A stretch of 64,000 nt of DNA, from assembly GCF_024055725.1 (NCBI RefSeq), contig NZ_JAMXMX010000010.1, positions 124,001-188,000 of the forward strand, written 5' to 3'. A model generated the notes under the pieces. The model was not told the origin of the DNA. It searched no databases and was given only the letters and a program-made list of their open reading frames with translations. Source of the DNA: Actinoallomurus spadix (GTDB lineage Bacteria; Actinomycetota; Actinomycetes; Streptosporangiales; Streptosporangiaceae). Within the stretch, counting starts at the first letter, position 1; each line of letters starts with the position of its first letter. Both the position numbers and the translations under genes were made by a program. Shown in pieces: positions 57,081 through 62,690 of the stretch.

Positions 57081-57231
57081 TCTCGGCCTCCTCCCTGGTC
57101 AGGGCTCCCCTACCCGCCGCCGGAAGCCCGCACACGGCCGATACTCCTCATCTCACGATATTGGAAAGCGTGTCCGGTAGGCCGCCGTTAGGGTGATCGG
57201 CAGCAATGCCGACCGAGGAGAGGCCACCGGG

Positions 57232-59004
57232 GTGGACCAGGCGTTCCAAGTCGATCTACGCGGGGTCGTCGACCTGCTGAGCAGGCACCTGTACTCCAGT
57301 CCCCGCGTGTACCTGCGGGAGCTGCTGCAGAACGGGGTCGACGCGATCACCGCGCGCGGTGACGGGCCGGGGCGGATCCGGGTCGAGACCGGGGCCGAGC
57401 TCCGCGTGCACGATGACGGGATCGGCCTGACCGAGGCGGAGGTCCACGAGCTGCTGGCGACCATCGGCCGGTCGTCCAAGCGCGACGAGCTCGGCCTGGC
57501 CCGGCACGACTTCCTCGGTCAGTTCGGCATCGGCCTGCTGTCGGCGTTCCTGGTCGCGGACGAGATCACCGTGGTCACGCGGTCCGCCCGCGGCGGCGAC
57601 GCCGTACGGTGGACCGGCTTCGCCGACGGCCGCTACCGCGTCGAACCCGGCACGCGCGAGGAGCCGGGGACCACCGTGAGCCTGCGGCCCCGGCACGGCG
57701 CGAGCGACTGGCTCACCCCCGCGACCGTCACCGAGCTCGCCGCGACGTACGGCGAGCTGCTGCCCGTCGAGCTGACGGTCGACGGGCGGCGGATCACCGC
57801 GGGCGGTCCGCCGTGGCGGGCGGCGTACCCCGATCCGGGCCGCCGCCGCGCGACGCTGGAGGAGTACTCCCGGCGGCTGTTCGGGTTCACGCCGTTCGAC
57901 GTCATCGACCTGGAGGTTCCCGAGGCGGGGCTGACCGGGGTGGCGTTCGTCCTCCCGCAGCCGGTGACCCCGTCCGCGCGGGGCGCGCACCGCGTGTACC
58001 TGAAGCGGATGCTGCTGGCCGAGGGCGTGGAGGGGCTGCTGCCCGACTGGGCGTTCTTCGTCCGCTGCGTGGTGGACGCCGGGGAGCTGCGCCCGACGGC
58101 GGGGCGCGAGGCACTGTACGAGGACGAGCTGCTCGACGCCACCCGCGAGGCACTGGGCCGGCAGGTACGGCAGTGGCTGGTGCGGCTGTCGGAGACCGAC
58201 CCGGCGAAGCTGCGCGCCTTCCTGCGCCTGCACCACCTCGGCGTCAAGGCGATGGCGCTGAACGACGACGACATGCTGCGGATCGTCGACCGATGGCTGG
58301 AGTTCGAGACGTCCGACGGCCCGATGACCCTGGCGGAGTTCCGCACCCGGCACCGGGACGGGCGCTACACCGCGGACGTCGACGAGTTCCGGCGCCTGGC
58401 GGCCGTCTCCGGCGCGCAGGGCGTCGCGCTGGTCAACGGCGGTTACGTGTACGACGCCGGCATCATCGAGCGGCTCCCGGCCATCGACCCCGACGCGGTG
58501 CTGCGGCCGCTGGACGCCTCCGAGCTGACCTCTCACTTCGGCGTGCTGGACCCGGAGACCGAGCTGGCGCTGCGGCCCTTCCTGAGCGTCGCGCAGCGGG
58601 CCGTCGACCCGCTCGGCTGCGAGGTCGTCGTCCGTGACTTCGACCCGGCGTCGCTGCCCGCGCTGTACCTGACGAGCCGGGCCGCCCGGCACCAGGCCGA
58701 GCTGCGCGAGACGCGGGAGTCCGCCGACGCGCTGTGGTCGGACGTGCTCGGCGCGCTGGAGGGCATGGCGGCCGTGAGCGACCGCCCGCAGCTCGTCCTC
58801 AACCACCGCAACCCGCTCGCCCGGCGCATCGCGGCGCTGAAGGAGACCGGGCTGATCGAGCTCGCGGTGCAGGCCCTGTACGGCCAGGCGCTCCTGCTCG
58901 GCCACCACCCCCTGCGGGCCGCCGACACCGCCGTGCTCAACCGATCCTTCCTCGGCCTGCTCGACTGGGCCGTCCACGACCCCGCCCCGGAGGACGACGA
59001 ATGA
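57232..59004 (+). CDS. HSP90-family paralogue (HtpG-like)
   Basis: 590-residue GHKL ATPase chaperone-like protein, distinct from canonical HtpG. ATP-site motifs: RELLQNGVDA (E30, N34), DDGIGLTE, lid GQFGIGLLSAFLVADEI and GTTVSLRPR. The middle domain keeps the catalytic Arg block ELRPTAGREALYED, corresponding to LPLNVSRE of HtpG. The C-terminal dimerisation region is recognisable by LVLNHRNPLARRI. The last residues are APEDDE, an acidic tail HtpG lacks. GTG 57232 has GAGAGG 8 nt upstream. Its stop overlaps the start of a TPR gene (ATGA), a chaperone/TPR pairing reminiscent of eukaryotic HSP90 co-chaperones. Confidence 0.9.
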   Translation: MDQAFQVDLRGVVDLLSRHLYSSPRVYLRELLQNGVDAITARGDGPGRIRVETGAELRVHDDGIGLTEAEVHELLATIGRSSKRDELGLARHDFLGQFGIGLLSAFLVADEITVVTRSARGGDAVRWTGFADGRYRVEPGTREEPGTTVSLRPRHGASDWLTPATVTELAATYGELLPVELTVDGRRITAGGPPWRAAYPDPGRRRATLEEYSRRLFGFTPFDVIDLEVPEAGLTGVAFVLPQPVTPSARGAHRVYLKRMLLAEGVEGLLPDWAFFVRCVVDAGELRPTAGREALYEDELLDATREALGRQVRQWLVRLSETDPAKLRAFLRLHHLGVKAMALNDDDMLRIVDRWLEFETSDGPMTLAEFRTRHRDGRYTADVDEFRRLAAVSGAQGVALVNGGYVYDAGIIERLPAIDPDAVLRPLDASELTSHFGVLDPETELALRPFLSVAQRAVDPLGCEVVVRDFDPASLPALYLTSRAARHQAELRETRESADALWSDVLGALEGMAAVSDRPQLVLNHRNPLARRIAALKETGLIELAVQALYGQALLLGHHPLRAADTAVLNRSFLGLLDWAVHDPAPEDDE

Positions 59005-61686
59005 GCGTGGAACAGGTGTACGACCTGATGGGCCGCGCGGGCGAACTGCCGTACGGCCAGGCTCGTACGATCATGGTCGAGGAGGCACTGCGCCTGGCCG
59101 AGGCCGACGCCGACGAGCGCCTCGCCTACCGCGTCCGCCACTCCCTGCGGCAGGAGTACGAGCAGAGCGGCGAGCGCGCCAAGGCGTTCGCGACGTTCGC
59201 GCGCTGCCTGAGCGACTACGACCGGAACCCCGAGCTCGGTGAGGAGTACCTCCTGTTCTGGGGTTTCAAGGGGACCGTCACCGGGCTGACGCGGTTCCCC
59301 GAGATCCCGCTCGACCGCACGCTGGCGGTCCTGGACGACATGGAGCGCCGCTACCGGCTCGCCGGTGAGGGTCTGCAGCCGGTGTACATGTGCCGGACGG
59401 TCGTCACCCGGCACGTCCACGGCGCGGAGGCGGCCGATGAGTGGTACACCCGGTGGCACGCCGCCCCGCGGACCCACCTGTCGGACTGTGTGGGCTGTGA
59501 CCCGAGCCACAAGGTCGTGTACCTGGCCGCGCGCGGCCGGGACGAGGACGCGATCGCCCCTCGCCGAGCCGCTGCTGCGCGGTGAGTTCACCTGCTCCGA
59601 ACAGCCCCAGACGATCCTCACCGAGCTCCTGCCGATCTATCTCCGTACGGGCCGCCTCGACGCCGCCGTCGACGCGCACCGGCGCGCCTACCGGGCCGTG
59701 CGGGACCAGCTGGCCGAACTGTGGGCCGTCGCCGTGCACCTGGAGTTCTGCGCCCGGACCGGGAACGAGGCGCGCGGCCTGGAGCTGCTGGAACGCCACC
59801 TCGGCTGGCTCGACCGTGCCCCGACGCCGTACGACGGCATGCGGTTCGCCGCGGCGGGCGCGCTCCTGCTGCGGCGGCTCGCCGAGATCGGTCACGGTGA
59901 CGTCACCGTACGGCGGCCCGCGCACGGGGACCGGCCCGCCGCCGACGTGCCGGCCGCCGGCCTGCGCGCGGACCTCACCCGGCACGCCCTGGACCTCGCC
60001 GCCCGGTTCGATGCCCGCAACGGCACGCCGGAACAGGGCCGGCTCGTCCGGGAACTCCTCGACGCCGAGCCGCTCGTCGACCACCTGCCGCTGACCCCGT
60101 ACGCGCGCCGCGCCCCGGCGCCGTCCCCGGCACCGGCTCCCCAGGAGGATCTCGAGGGCGTCGAGGACGTCGACCGGCTGTTCGACCTCGCCGAGGAGCA
60201 CTGGAGGCGGCGCGAGTTCCCCGCGGCGCTGGCCGCCTGGCGGCGCGTCGACGCGGTCGCGGGCGAGCTCTCCGCCGTGCAGCGGGGACGGCGCGCCGAC
60301 GGGGAGGGCCTCGAACGCCTCCTCACCGGAGATTCGGAGGGCGCGATCGAGCTGTGGCGGCGGTCCGCCGAGCTGTACGCGCAGGGCGGCGACGAGGAGA
60401 GCGCCCGGTCGGCGACCAGCCGGTACGCCGCGGTGCTCTGCGAGACCGGGCAGGCCGAGACCGGACTGCCGCTGCTCGAGTCGGCCTTCGCCTGGCTCGC
60501 CGCCCACGACGCGGAACCCGGGCGTGTGGTCGCGGCCCGGGGACGGCTGGCCGCCGCGTACGGCGAGGCGGGCCGTACCGACGAGGCGCTCGCCCTGCTC
60601 GACGGCGCGCCCGCGCCCACGGAGCCCGGCGATCTCGCCGACCAGGAGATGATCCGCGCCCGGATCCTGGGGGCGGCGGGCCGTGAGGCGGAGCTCACGC
60701 CGGTGCTCCGGCGGGCGGTCGAGGGTTTCCGCGCGAGCGGTCAGCGCGTGGTCCTGGCCGAGGCCGCCTTCCTGCTCGGCCGGCGGCTGGCCGCGAGCGA
60801 GGCGGAGGACGAGGCCGCCGAGGCGGACGCGCTGCTCACCGAGGCCATCACGAACGCCCCCGCCGACATGGCCGGGCTCCGCGCCGCCGCGTACGCCGTC
60901 CGGGGCGGACACCTCCTGGCCCGCGGCGACGCCGGCCGGGCCGCCGAGGACCTGATCGAGGCCGTCGCGGGGCTCACCGCCGAGGGCTCCCACCACCAGG
61001 CCGCGTACGCGCGCCAGGACCTGTGCGTCGCCTACCTGGAGACCGGCCGGTACCTCGAAGCGGCCGAAACCGCCGAGGAGGCGCTGCCGCTGTTCGAGGC
61101 GCACGGCGACACCGACGCCGCGCGCCGCACCCGGTACCTGCTCGGCAACGCCCAGCGCGACCTCGGCGAGGTCGACGCCGCCGCGGAGACGTTCACCCGC
61201 CTCGCCGAAGACGAACGCGCCGATCAGCCGGCCGTCGCCGCGCGCCTTCTCGCCGAAGCGGGCGACCTGCTGAGCCGGCTCGACAAGGACGCGACCGCCG
61301 CCGAACGCTTCGCCGCGGCCGCCGAGGCGTCGACCGCGGCCGGCGACCCGTACGGCACCGTTCAGTCGCTGCGCCGCCAGGCGCTGTGCGTGATGTGGAG
61401 CGGCAGCGCCGAGGACGGCCTGGCCGTCATGGGATCCGCGCGGGCCGCGCTCGCGCACCTGCCCGCCGACGAACCCGCCGCCCTGACCTGGGAGACGGCC
61501 CTCACCGACTTCGACGAGGCGCGGATCCTCGGGGCCCTGGAGCGGTTCGACGCGGCGATCGCCTCGGTCGACCGGGCGACCGCCGCGTTCACCGCGCTCG
61601 ACCAGAAGGACCCCGCCGAGGCCGCGGCCCGGCTGCGCGCCGACCTCCTCGCCGCGCGGCCGGGTCCCGGTGACGCGAGTACCTGA
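59001..61686 (+). CDS. TPR protein coupled to HSP90 paralogue, frame interrupted at 59557-59560
   Basis: Large helical-repeat protein of about 894 residues when rejoined. The first 187 codons (VEQVYDLMGRAGELPYGQARTIMVEEAL, TRHVHGAEAADEWYTRWH, a CxxC in LSDCVGCDPSHK) are in frame with ATG 59001; a CCCC run at 59557-59560 holds one base too many, after which LAEPLLRGEFTCSEQPQ continues in the next frame to 61686. The second part contains at least eight TPR-like pairs (EEHWRRREFPAALAAWRRVD, LLTGDSEGAIELWRRSAELYAQGG, LGNAQRDLGEVDAAAETFTRLAE). Probably binds proteins and partners the HSP90 paralogue. Sequencing error or true mutation unresolved. Confidence 0.8.
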
Positions 61687-61697
61687 AGGAGTGCCTG

Positions 61698-61862
61698 CTA
61701 GGGCCTGTCTCGAAGTCCCCGGCTAGCGAGCGGTGTCCAGATGGTGCGTCGCAAGGCGGAGGAGGGAGGCAGCCTGGTTTTGGCTGCCGACCGACGACAA
61801 CGCGGCGAGGCGCTGCCTGGACACCGCGTAGTAGGACAGCGGGGCTTTGAGACAGGCTCTAG
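61698..61862. mobile_element. 165-bp MITE-like foldback element (IS5-type ends)
   Basis: Ends are imperfect inverted repeats of about 19 bp: GGCCTGTCTCGAAGTCCCC on the left and AGCCTGTCTCAAAGCCCC reading inward from the right, each flanked by CTAG, a likely 4-bp target duplication (YTAR, as for IS5-group elements). Inside, CGGTGTCCAG (61731-61740) pairs with CTGGACACCG (61817-61826) and GGCAGCC with GGCTGCC around a central loop, so the whole element can fold as one long hairpin. It has no transposase gene. It lies 11 nt after the TPR stop and just before the stop of the convergent toxin gene. Confidence 0.75.
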
Positions 61863-61871
61863 CGTCCAGCC

Positions 61872-62222
61872 TCACTCGGTCTTCTTCGGATGCCCGCAGG
61901 AGGCGGTGATCACCCATACGGTCCGCTTCTCGTCATCGACCAGGTAGAAGATGCGCCCACCGCCGGTGACCTCGATCTGCCACTGCTCGAGCGGGCGACC
62001 TTCGAACTGGTGGGTGGCGAGCTCACCGCGAAGACGCTTGTGTCGATGGTCTTCGACCGGCCGCGGATTCGACCGCATGAGCTCAAAGGCTTCACGGGTG
62101 TTCTTCGGCGCTTGCTTCGCGAGCTCGGGCCAGCCCTTCGCCGCTTCGCTCGTGCCGAACCGAACGTCCCATTCCCGGCCGATCGGCGGAGGAGCAACCG
62201 GGTCCTTACGCTTCGGGCTCAT
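61872..62222 (-). CDS. Type II toxin, RelE/ParE-like
   Basis: 116-residue protein resembling RelE-superfamily toxins: FGTSEAAKGWPELAKQAPKNTREAFELMRSNPRP, then HRHKRLRGELATHQFEGRPLEQWQIEVTGGGRIFYLVDDEKRTVWVITASCGHPK, which is the strand order and terminal His/Lys-rich end of this family. It follows its antitoxin by 6 nt. Expected to cleave mRNA on the ribosome or otherwise stop growth. A mobile element ends 9 nt beyond its stop. Confidence 0.82.
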   Translation of the reverse strand: MSPKRKDPVAPPPIGREWDVRFGTSEAAKGWPELAKQAPKNTREAFELMRSNPRPVEDHRHKRLRGELATHQFEGRPLEQWQIEVTGGGRIFYLVDDEKRTVWVITASCGHPKKTE

Positions 62223-62228
62223 CGAACC

Positions 62229-62690
62229 TCAAAGGACCGAGACAGGACCGTAGTCGGTGCCGTCCAGAGGCTCGGTGAGCCTGGCACGCAACTCCGGGTC
62301 CGCGTGAATCCTGGCAGTGCTCCGCCACGCCTCGACCACGGTCTCCAGCGGAGCGAGCGTGTCCAGTTCCGCACAGGCGTTCGCCGTTTCCACCAGCTCG
62401 ACCAGGAACGCCCGCACGTCTTCGGTCGGCAGGAACTTCACCCAGGGGAACGCCTCCGGCAGCACCATGAGCAGAGCCCGCGCCCCCTCGTCCTGTTTCA
62501 CCAGTGAGACGAACAGACGGGTCGTCACGCTCATGGCCGCAGCGGCAGCCTCCGCACGGTCGGCCGTCTCCAGAACGAGATCTTCTCCGTCACGGCGCAC
62601 GAGTCGCAGTTGCTGCGCCTCGTCCAGCTTGGCGACCGTCTTGCCAGGCTGCTGAATGAGCTGTGAGAAGGGAACCTTGGTGGTACTCAC
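62229..62690 (-). CDS. Antitoxin of RelE-like pair (Phd-like N-terminus)
   Basis: 153-residue protein, first gene of the pair. Residues 1-50 (KVPFSQLIQQPGKTVAKLDEAQQLRLVRRDGEDLVLETADRA) resemble the Phd/YefM DNA-binding and dimer part; the longer helical C-terminus (AFLVELVETANACAELDTLAPLETVVEAWRSTARIHADPELRARL) probably wraps the toxin. GTG start 6 nt from a TACTCT -10, so the mRNA is probably leaderless. A 24-bp palindrome covers the -35 region. Confidence 0.78.
   Translation of the reverse strand: MSTTKVPFSQLIQQPGKTVAKLDEAQQLRLVRRDGEDLVLETADRAEAAAAAMSVTTRLFVSLVKQDEGARALLMVLPEAFPWVKFLPTEDVRAFLVELVETANACAELDTLAPLETVVEAWRSTARIHADPELRARLTEPLDGTDYGPVSVL

Follow-up and report, generated by a model that had tools for sequence, protein, structure and literature searches.

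The MEEVD motif of eukaryotic Hsp90 and the tetratricopeptide repeat (TPR) co-chaperones associated with it have been described (PMC11687934). For bacteria, a 2021 paper states that no cochaperones of Hsp90 in protein remodelling have been identified (PMC7926864), and the title of a 2023 paper reports that HtpG of Mycobacterium tuberculosis associates directly with DnaJ2 (PMC10269695). Chen et al. (2006; PMC1525184) recognize three groups of bacterial HTPGs (A, B, and C), assign those of Actinobacteria and Firmicutes to Groups A and C, and find Streptomyces coelicolor to have two HTPG copies; a word search of the main text of that paper finds none of “tetratricopeptide,” “TPR,” and “operon.” Here we analyze a gene pair from Actinoallomurus spadix, consisting of an HSP90 paralogue and a downstream partner gene with TPR repeats, in a stretch of 64,000 nucleotides (nt) that we call the window (positions 124,001–188,000 of the forward strand of contig NZ_JAMXMX010000010.1, assembly GCF_024055725.1). 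The strongest claim that the analysis carries is that this HSP90 family keeps a dedicated partner adjacent to it in two phyla, usually with the two genes overlapping or touching.

Conserved Linkage of HSP90 and Its Partner

The HSP90 gene of the window (57232..59004, plus strand) belongs to the NCBIfam family NF010683 (PRK14083), and the partner gene follows it on the same strand (59001..61686). We searched for this arrangement with a profile of the partner N-terminal domain in two collections: 80 named loci, fetched with the HSP90 alone as query and representing the best 80 of 481, i.e., its closest relatives, and a class sample of 394 genomes of the same class, picked regardless of either gene. 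The partner lies directly downstream of the HSP90 in all 80 named loci, 24 of which are also rows of the profile. In the class sample, 46 genomes account for 53 NF010683-type HSP90 loci, and 49 genomes for 60 strong partner matches, after exclusion of four weak matches (E above 1e-5) and with no more than three HSP90 and five partner candidates scored per genome, so that some may be missed. The partner is immediately downstream and on the same strand in 52 of these 53 HSP90 loci. Counted by genome, 45 contain both genes, 1 the HSP90 only, 4 the partner only, and 344 neither (Fisher P = 2.5e-53, the related genomes not being independent). The pairing goes beyond chance.

The two genes are also close, with the partner start overlapping the HSP90 stop or lying within 2 nt past it in 81 of the 89 loci measured. 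In the window, the partner ATG (59001–59003) and the HSP90 TGA (59002–59004) form an ATGA overlap (59001..59004), as the sequence-only reading had noted. The sole exception in the class sample (genome G332, locus L177) has a 297-residue TPR protein that passes the Pfam cut-offs for TPR_2 and TPR_8; its gene is likewise ATGA-coupled to the HSP90, and profile comparison detects no relation to the usual partner. The G332 HSP90 is 37% identical to another family member (L035), and this locus (L177:6719-9369) would show that the HSP90 family can have a TPR partner of a second kind.

The linkage extends outside the phylum. HSP90s of Listeria monocytogenes (L190) and Paenibacillus cellulosilyticus (L189) score 799 and 715 bits against NF010683, placing them in the same family, and the genes that directly follow them encode proteins of 320–353 residues homologous to the partner N-terminal domain only (hhalign E of 9.1e-31 and 2.1e-38, respectively). 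Listeria carries two such partner genes in tandem behind its HSP90 (L190:7797-9765). By gene order next to fri, rather than by sequence, one of them is probably lmo0941, for which one paper (PMC6901971) notes signs of selection, listing its product as hypothetical and of unknown function.

One reading of this linkage is that the two are operon mates only, with separate functions under one promoter, and a complex between them is indeed only proposed from sequence. Adjacency is nevertheless kept across two phyla whose HSP90s are only 34–37% identical, which in our judgement is more than is usual for unrelated operon mates, and we regard this explanation as improbable. Taken together, the class sample, the named loci, and the two Bacillota loci support, at the level of sequence, the dedicated HSP90–TPR pair that had been proposed from the window.

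Genomic Surroundings of the Pair

A third gene that recurs across genera was not found beside the pair, apart from apparent antisense or spurious open reading frames (ORFs), in the 58 of 80 loci that could be used, the gene caller having missed the HSP90 in the other 22. In loci of Actinomadura and Thermomonospora (7 to 10 for each genus), metabolic genes recur around the pair, and by their sequences they look folD-, icd-, and mdh-like. These surroundings bear on the idea of a sensor or antiphage module, in which the HSP90-like ATPase would act as switch and the TPR protein as detector. HSP90-like ATPases are found in conflict systems, the distribution of the present family is patchy, and the ATPase part of the window protein has weak matches to TmtA models and a MzaB model. 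However, the best PADLOC score is 24.7 bits and covers residues 9–116 only, i.e., the ATPase fold; the partner pieces have no match; and, besides the metabolic neighbourhood, no effector-like gene recurs next to the pair across genera in those 58 loci. An antiphage role thus seems unlikely, with only a small chance of being right.

A Complete HSP90 Separate from HtpG

The window HSP90 has a GTG start, comprises 590 residues, and scores 824.4 bits against NF010683 (curated cut-off 455). Against the HtpG model NF003555 it reaches 168.2 bits, below the curated cut-off of 371, and so it does not fall within HtpG; a separate HtpG is encoded in the same genome (G000:C29, tree row L017). In the tree, 22 HSP90-family rows split with a support of 0.94 from 14 HtpG rows and one Pseudanabaena protein, the HtpG rows being those retained, by motif, from 24 HtpG loci. 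Among named relatives, Actinoallomurus purpureus is the closest, with an HSP90 94% identical to that of the window (among the best 80 of 481 relatives). HSP90s that pass the family cut-off are also present in Deinobacterium chartae and Corynebacterium glutamicum.

The motifs of the ATP site and of catalysis are in place: the N-box of the GHKL ATP site with E30, N34, and D37 (57319..57342; alignment to HtpG), the G1 box D61-x-G-x-G65 (57412..57426; family alignment), the G2 box GQFGIGLL at residues 96–103 (57517..57540; family and HtpG alignments), and the catalytic arginine region R292–E293 of the middle domain (58105..58110), in which R292 aligns with position 336 of HtpG chain 1y4s. E30, N34, D37, D61, G63, G65, G99, G101, R292, and E293 are invariant in all 25 aligned family members. 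This bears out the intact HSP90-type ORF of the sequence-only reading, with its ATP-site motifs, catalytic arginine, and acidic end. An alternative in-frame GTG at 57193 would give a protein of 603 residues; we favour the start at 57232 because, of 25 rows, 14 have Met or Val aligned there and a single one has another residue (10 do not cover the position).

Fold comparison used the predicted model of a relative (L083) as a stand-in for the window protein. The HSP90 half of this model, taken from the tethered pair described below, aligns with TRAP1 (7kcl_B; Z 30.4, rms deviation 5.2, 524 aligned) and HtpG (9a6t_B; Z 29.7, rms deviation 5.8, 540 aligned), and it matches full-length TRAP1, Hsp90, and HtpG over about residues 1–588, with N-terminal (N), middle (M), and C-terminal (C) domains all present. 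As judged by family scores and this predicted fold, the window HSP90 has the full N-M-C make-up of an HSP90, is of a kind known from bacteria, and is a paralogue distinct from HtpG. It has in common with HtpG (NF003555/PRK05218) the GHKL ATP site, the catalytic arginine, and the N-M-C architecture, but differs in belonging to a separate family and a separate branch of the tree. We infer that the Group C of Chen et al. (2006) is probably this family, NF010683/PRK14083.

The N-Terminal Domain as the Core of the Partner

Because the Listeria and Paenibacillus partners carry only the N-terminal domain, the core of the partner is this domain and not the TPR array. It is about 370 residues long, and the TPR array behind it is variable; a single TPR repeat just over the Pfam cut-off occurs in one of the Listeria partner proteins. 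Conservation follows the same division, with a mean majority fraction in 26 full-length partners of 0.64–0.65 for the N-terminal domain versus 0.41–0.44 for the rest. Of 92 partner proteins, 89 have a D-C-x2-C motif or a close variant of it, and 88 have it together with a third cysteine. Among the more divergent pairs, three (L086, L088, and L010) have partners without the DC-x2-C cysteines, and in a fourth (L178, the same as G719) the partner has two successive matches to the profile of the N-terminal domain.

The predicted fold of a Thermomonospora partner (L056, 881 residues) is nearly all helical (pLDDT 91.8, pTM 0.84). In a comparison of the partner profile with sequences of solved structures (58 sequence matches), the C-terminal repeats come closest to AfsR (1.6e-13) and LGN (3.4e-10). 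The TPR arrays of LGN/Pins and AfsR are thus the nearest sequence matches of these repeats, but the matches are limited to the C-terminal part, from profile position ~430 onward. With the N-terminal domain alone, ten chains are matched at an E of 1 or less; most are designed helical proteins, and the best reaches 8.5e-08 over 53 positions. No dedicated model for it was found in the Pfam and NCBIfam scans made here, and the first Listeria partner and the Paenibacillus partner have no NCBIfam match.

The domain also occurs in other settings. Two partner-domain genes without an adjacent HSP90 (L171:5532-7609 and L175:5969-8019) follow a YbjN-like gene, and the C-terminal ends of their own products resemble the YbjN-like protein; on an Actinomyces oris plasmid, a gene for a further partner-domain protein without HSP90 (L193:2319-7036) has a YbjN-domain gene two genes upstream. 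With YbjN-like proteins, the domain may have a second partnership. Another partner-domain gene without an adjacent HSP90 (L174) is directly followed by what appears, by eye, to be a cyclic-nucleotide-binding gene.

A Frame Change in the Partner Gene of the Window

The partner gene of the window had been read as a single ORF of 890 residues with TPR repeats, which does not hold: the frame that opens at 59001 closes at 59585 after 194 residues, and homology resumes in the next frame up to 61686. The first piece (59001..59585), in which about 186 residues are homologous to relatives, contains the first half of the conserved helical domain and has no Pfam or NCBIfam match. The second piece (59560..61686), delimited by ORF, Pfam, and relatives, contains the remainder of the N-terminal domain followed by the TPR array, so that the repeats lie wholly in the second frame (TPR_12, 36.2 bits against a cut-off of 30.1, E 7e-09). 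From translation and alignment, C163-x2-C166 of the DC-x2-C motif (59487..59498) falls in the first piece and the third conserved cysteine, in GEFTC-x-EQPQ (59593..59595), in the second.

Two relatives (L007 and L055) have an uninterrupted partner gene, which the first piece of the window matches up to residue 186 and which the second piece continues in one frame. DNA and protein comparison with them locates the frame switch at 59553..59560, and the DNA alignment contains a one-base length difference there. We considered a programmed frameshift and rejected it, since the relatives read straight through the same place. The partner gene of the window would therefore be either recently frameshifted or misassembled. 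A second partner copy was not found in the genome among the candidates scored (the top 4 or 5 of 129).

The Acidic Tail and the Shine–Dalgarno Site

The sequence-only reading had suggested that the acidic end of the window HSP90 might hold the pair together in the way that MEEVD does in eukaryotes. The protein does end in DPAPEDDE, and the codons of its last residues PEDDE (58987..59001) run directly into the TPR gene, which is what such a link would lead one to expect, but these residues are not conserved in relatives. In the alignment, conservation of the HSP90 stops at ...NRSFLGLL(D/E)WA, beyond which length and charge vary. Across 93 proteins (92 distinct, as L008 and L055 are the same gene; L079 was excluded for a frameshift), the commonest last residue is Arg (44/93), the net charge of the last five residues ranges from −4 to +2, and an acidic end (three acidic residues) or EEVD-like motif occurs in only two, those of the window and of L030. 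The Listeria HSP90 ends in ...MLRILEML and is tail-less, with AGGAGG after its stop.

Where the genes overlap or nearly touch, the Shine–Dalgarno site of the partner must fall within the last HSP90 codons. In the window, a GGAGG motif (58989..58993) sits inside the P-E-D codons, 7 nt before the ATG. Of 80 coupled loci, 67 have a Shine–Dalgarno-like motif 3–12 nt ahead of the start of the partner, whereas further upstream it is present in 4633 of 39200 windows in the same frame. Among the last 8 codons of 69 loci, acidic codons account for 89 of the 170 that overlap the motif versus 52 of the 382 others; unlocatable rows and L008, L063, L065, L079, and L133 were left out of this count. In 13 of 81 coupled loci, L030 included, there is no such motif, so the Shine–Dalgarno site does not account for all acidic tails. 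The acidity of the tail does not go beyond chance, and the acidic residues appear better, and more simply, explained by the Shine–Dalgarno site of the partner gene. A carboxylate-clamp pattern, applied with no positive control, is found in none of the 92 partner proteins. Tail variation and the overlap of acidic codons with the Shine–Dalgarno motif contradict the MEEVD-like link, and we consider it very improbable that the tail binds the TPR protein.

Eukaryotic Hsp90 with its TPR co-chaperones (Hop/Sti1, Cpr6, and others) is thus a counterpart by way of working, a pair of an HSP90 and a TPR protein, and not a system of which the bacterial pair is a member: the bacterial family has no conserved (M)EEVD-like tail, and the conserved part of its partner is a different, N-terminal domain. 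Neither Hop nor FKBPs nor PP5 appear among the names of the 58 sequence matches of the partner profile.

How the Two Proteins May Work Together

The explanation that we favour, and hold to be somewhat more probable than its negation, is that the HSP90 paralogue works with a dedicated partner that acts as an adaptor or co-chaperone and docks elsewhere than on the tail. The HSP90 would be the ATP-driven chaperone; the helical N-terminal domain of the partner would most likely dock on it away from the C-terminal tail; and the variable TPR array would most likely bind clients or other proteins, which would make the partner an adaptor or co-chaperone. Translational coupling would ensure that both proteins are made together. 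In its wider form, which we put forward tentatively and with slightly less than even expectation, this would be a bacterial co-chaperone system built on an ancient paralogue shared by Actinomycetota and Bacillota, in which the cysteine-bearing domain is a new HSP90-docking module, independent of the eukaryotic MEEVD/TPR-clamp.

Several observations weigh against a partner that docks on HSP90. An AlphaFold model of the tethered L083 pair, in which the natural stop is read as Trp (588 + 375 residues), has a mean pLDDT of 89.7 and a pTM of 0.61; the latter does not indicate a confident interface, and it could reflect two well-folded but loosely placed parts. A natural fusion of HSP90 and partner was not found among the 51 pairs of the class sample: 5 of them share one frame, but their HSP90 open frames of 645–758 residues, one of which (G578) has an internal TGA, are too short for both proteins. 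The family is patchy, reaching the cut-off in 46 of the 394 class genomes and in 4 of 8 Actinoallomurus genomes. In A. spadix itself, the frameshift means that the pair may be broken or the assembly wrong. Lastly, 8 partner matches have no adjacent HSP90; with two of them being second pieces of genes already counted (G000 and G719), six orphans remain with no HSP90 in the 13–14 kb around them, and so the domain can exist apart from HSP90 or has been reused.

Fusion candidates outside this count were rejected as well. Two suspiciously long frames were checked and are not fusions, and the apparent fusion of L079 is due to a frameshift in its HSP90. An 877-residue HSP90-like protein of Pseudanabaena (locus L191:5932-9314), with a TPR gene two genes on, scores 383 bits, below the cut-off of 455, and was not counted. 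By eye, the extra C-terminal region of this protein resembles the product of the next gene, and a TIR-domain gene lies upstream on the other strand.

The orphans also bear on a reversed relationship, in which the partner is a dedicated client and the HSP90 folds or activates a large TPR protein that is itself a scaffold, sensor, or regulator. Tight coupling would suit a chaperone with its own client as well, and the TPR array resembles those of signalling scaffolds such as LGN and of the AfsR regulator. Against this, the orphan genes indicate that the domain does not always depend on a neighbouring HSP90, and the Listeria and Paenibacillus partners, with their 320–353 residues, are not large. 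We rate the client explanation as rather unlikely, while giving it more weight than operon mates or an antiphage module, and retain the adaptor or co-chaperone as our working explanation.

Other Elements in the Window

Directly after the partner gene lies a 169-bp element with inverted ends (61697-61865), which resembles a miniature inverted-repeat transposable element; three more near-full-length copies (93–95%) and several fragments are present in the same genome. Beyond it, on the minus strand (61872-62690), two adjacent genes encode a 116-residue protein with a weak, below-cut-off match to ParE toxins and a 153-residue protein with a DUF6247 match just under the cut-off. From these matches, the two form a possible toxin–antitoxin pair.

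Significance

This HSP90–partner pair is not described in any of the literature matches listed, which comprise titles and opening lines of abstracts in open-licence PubMed Central (PMC) articles. It offers a concrete candidate for a bacterial Hsp90 co-chaperone, with a small version in Listeria and Paenibacillus, and it provides a lead to the function of an N-terminal domain for which the Pfam and NCBIfam scans made here brought up no separate model. If the two proteins bind each other, regulation of HSP90 by partners can arise without a MEEVD tail.

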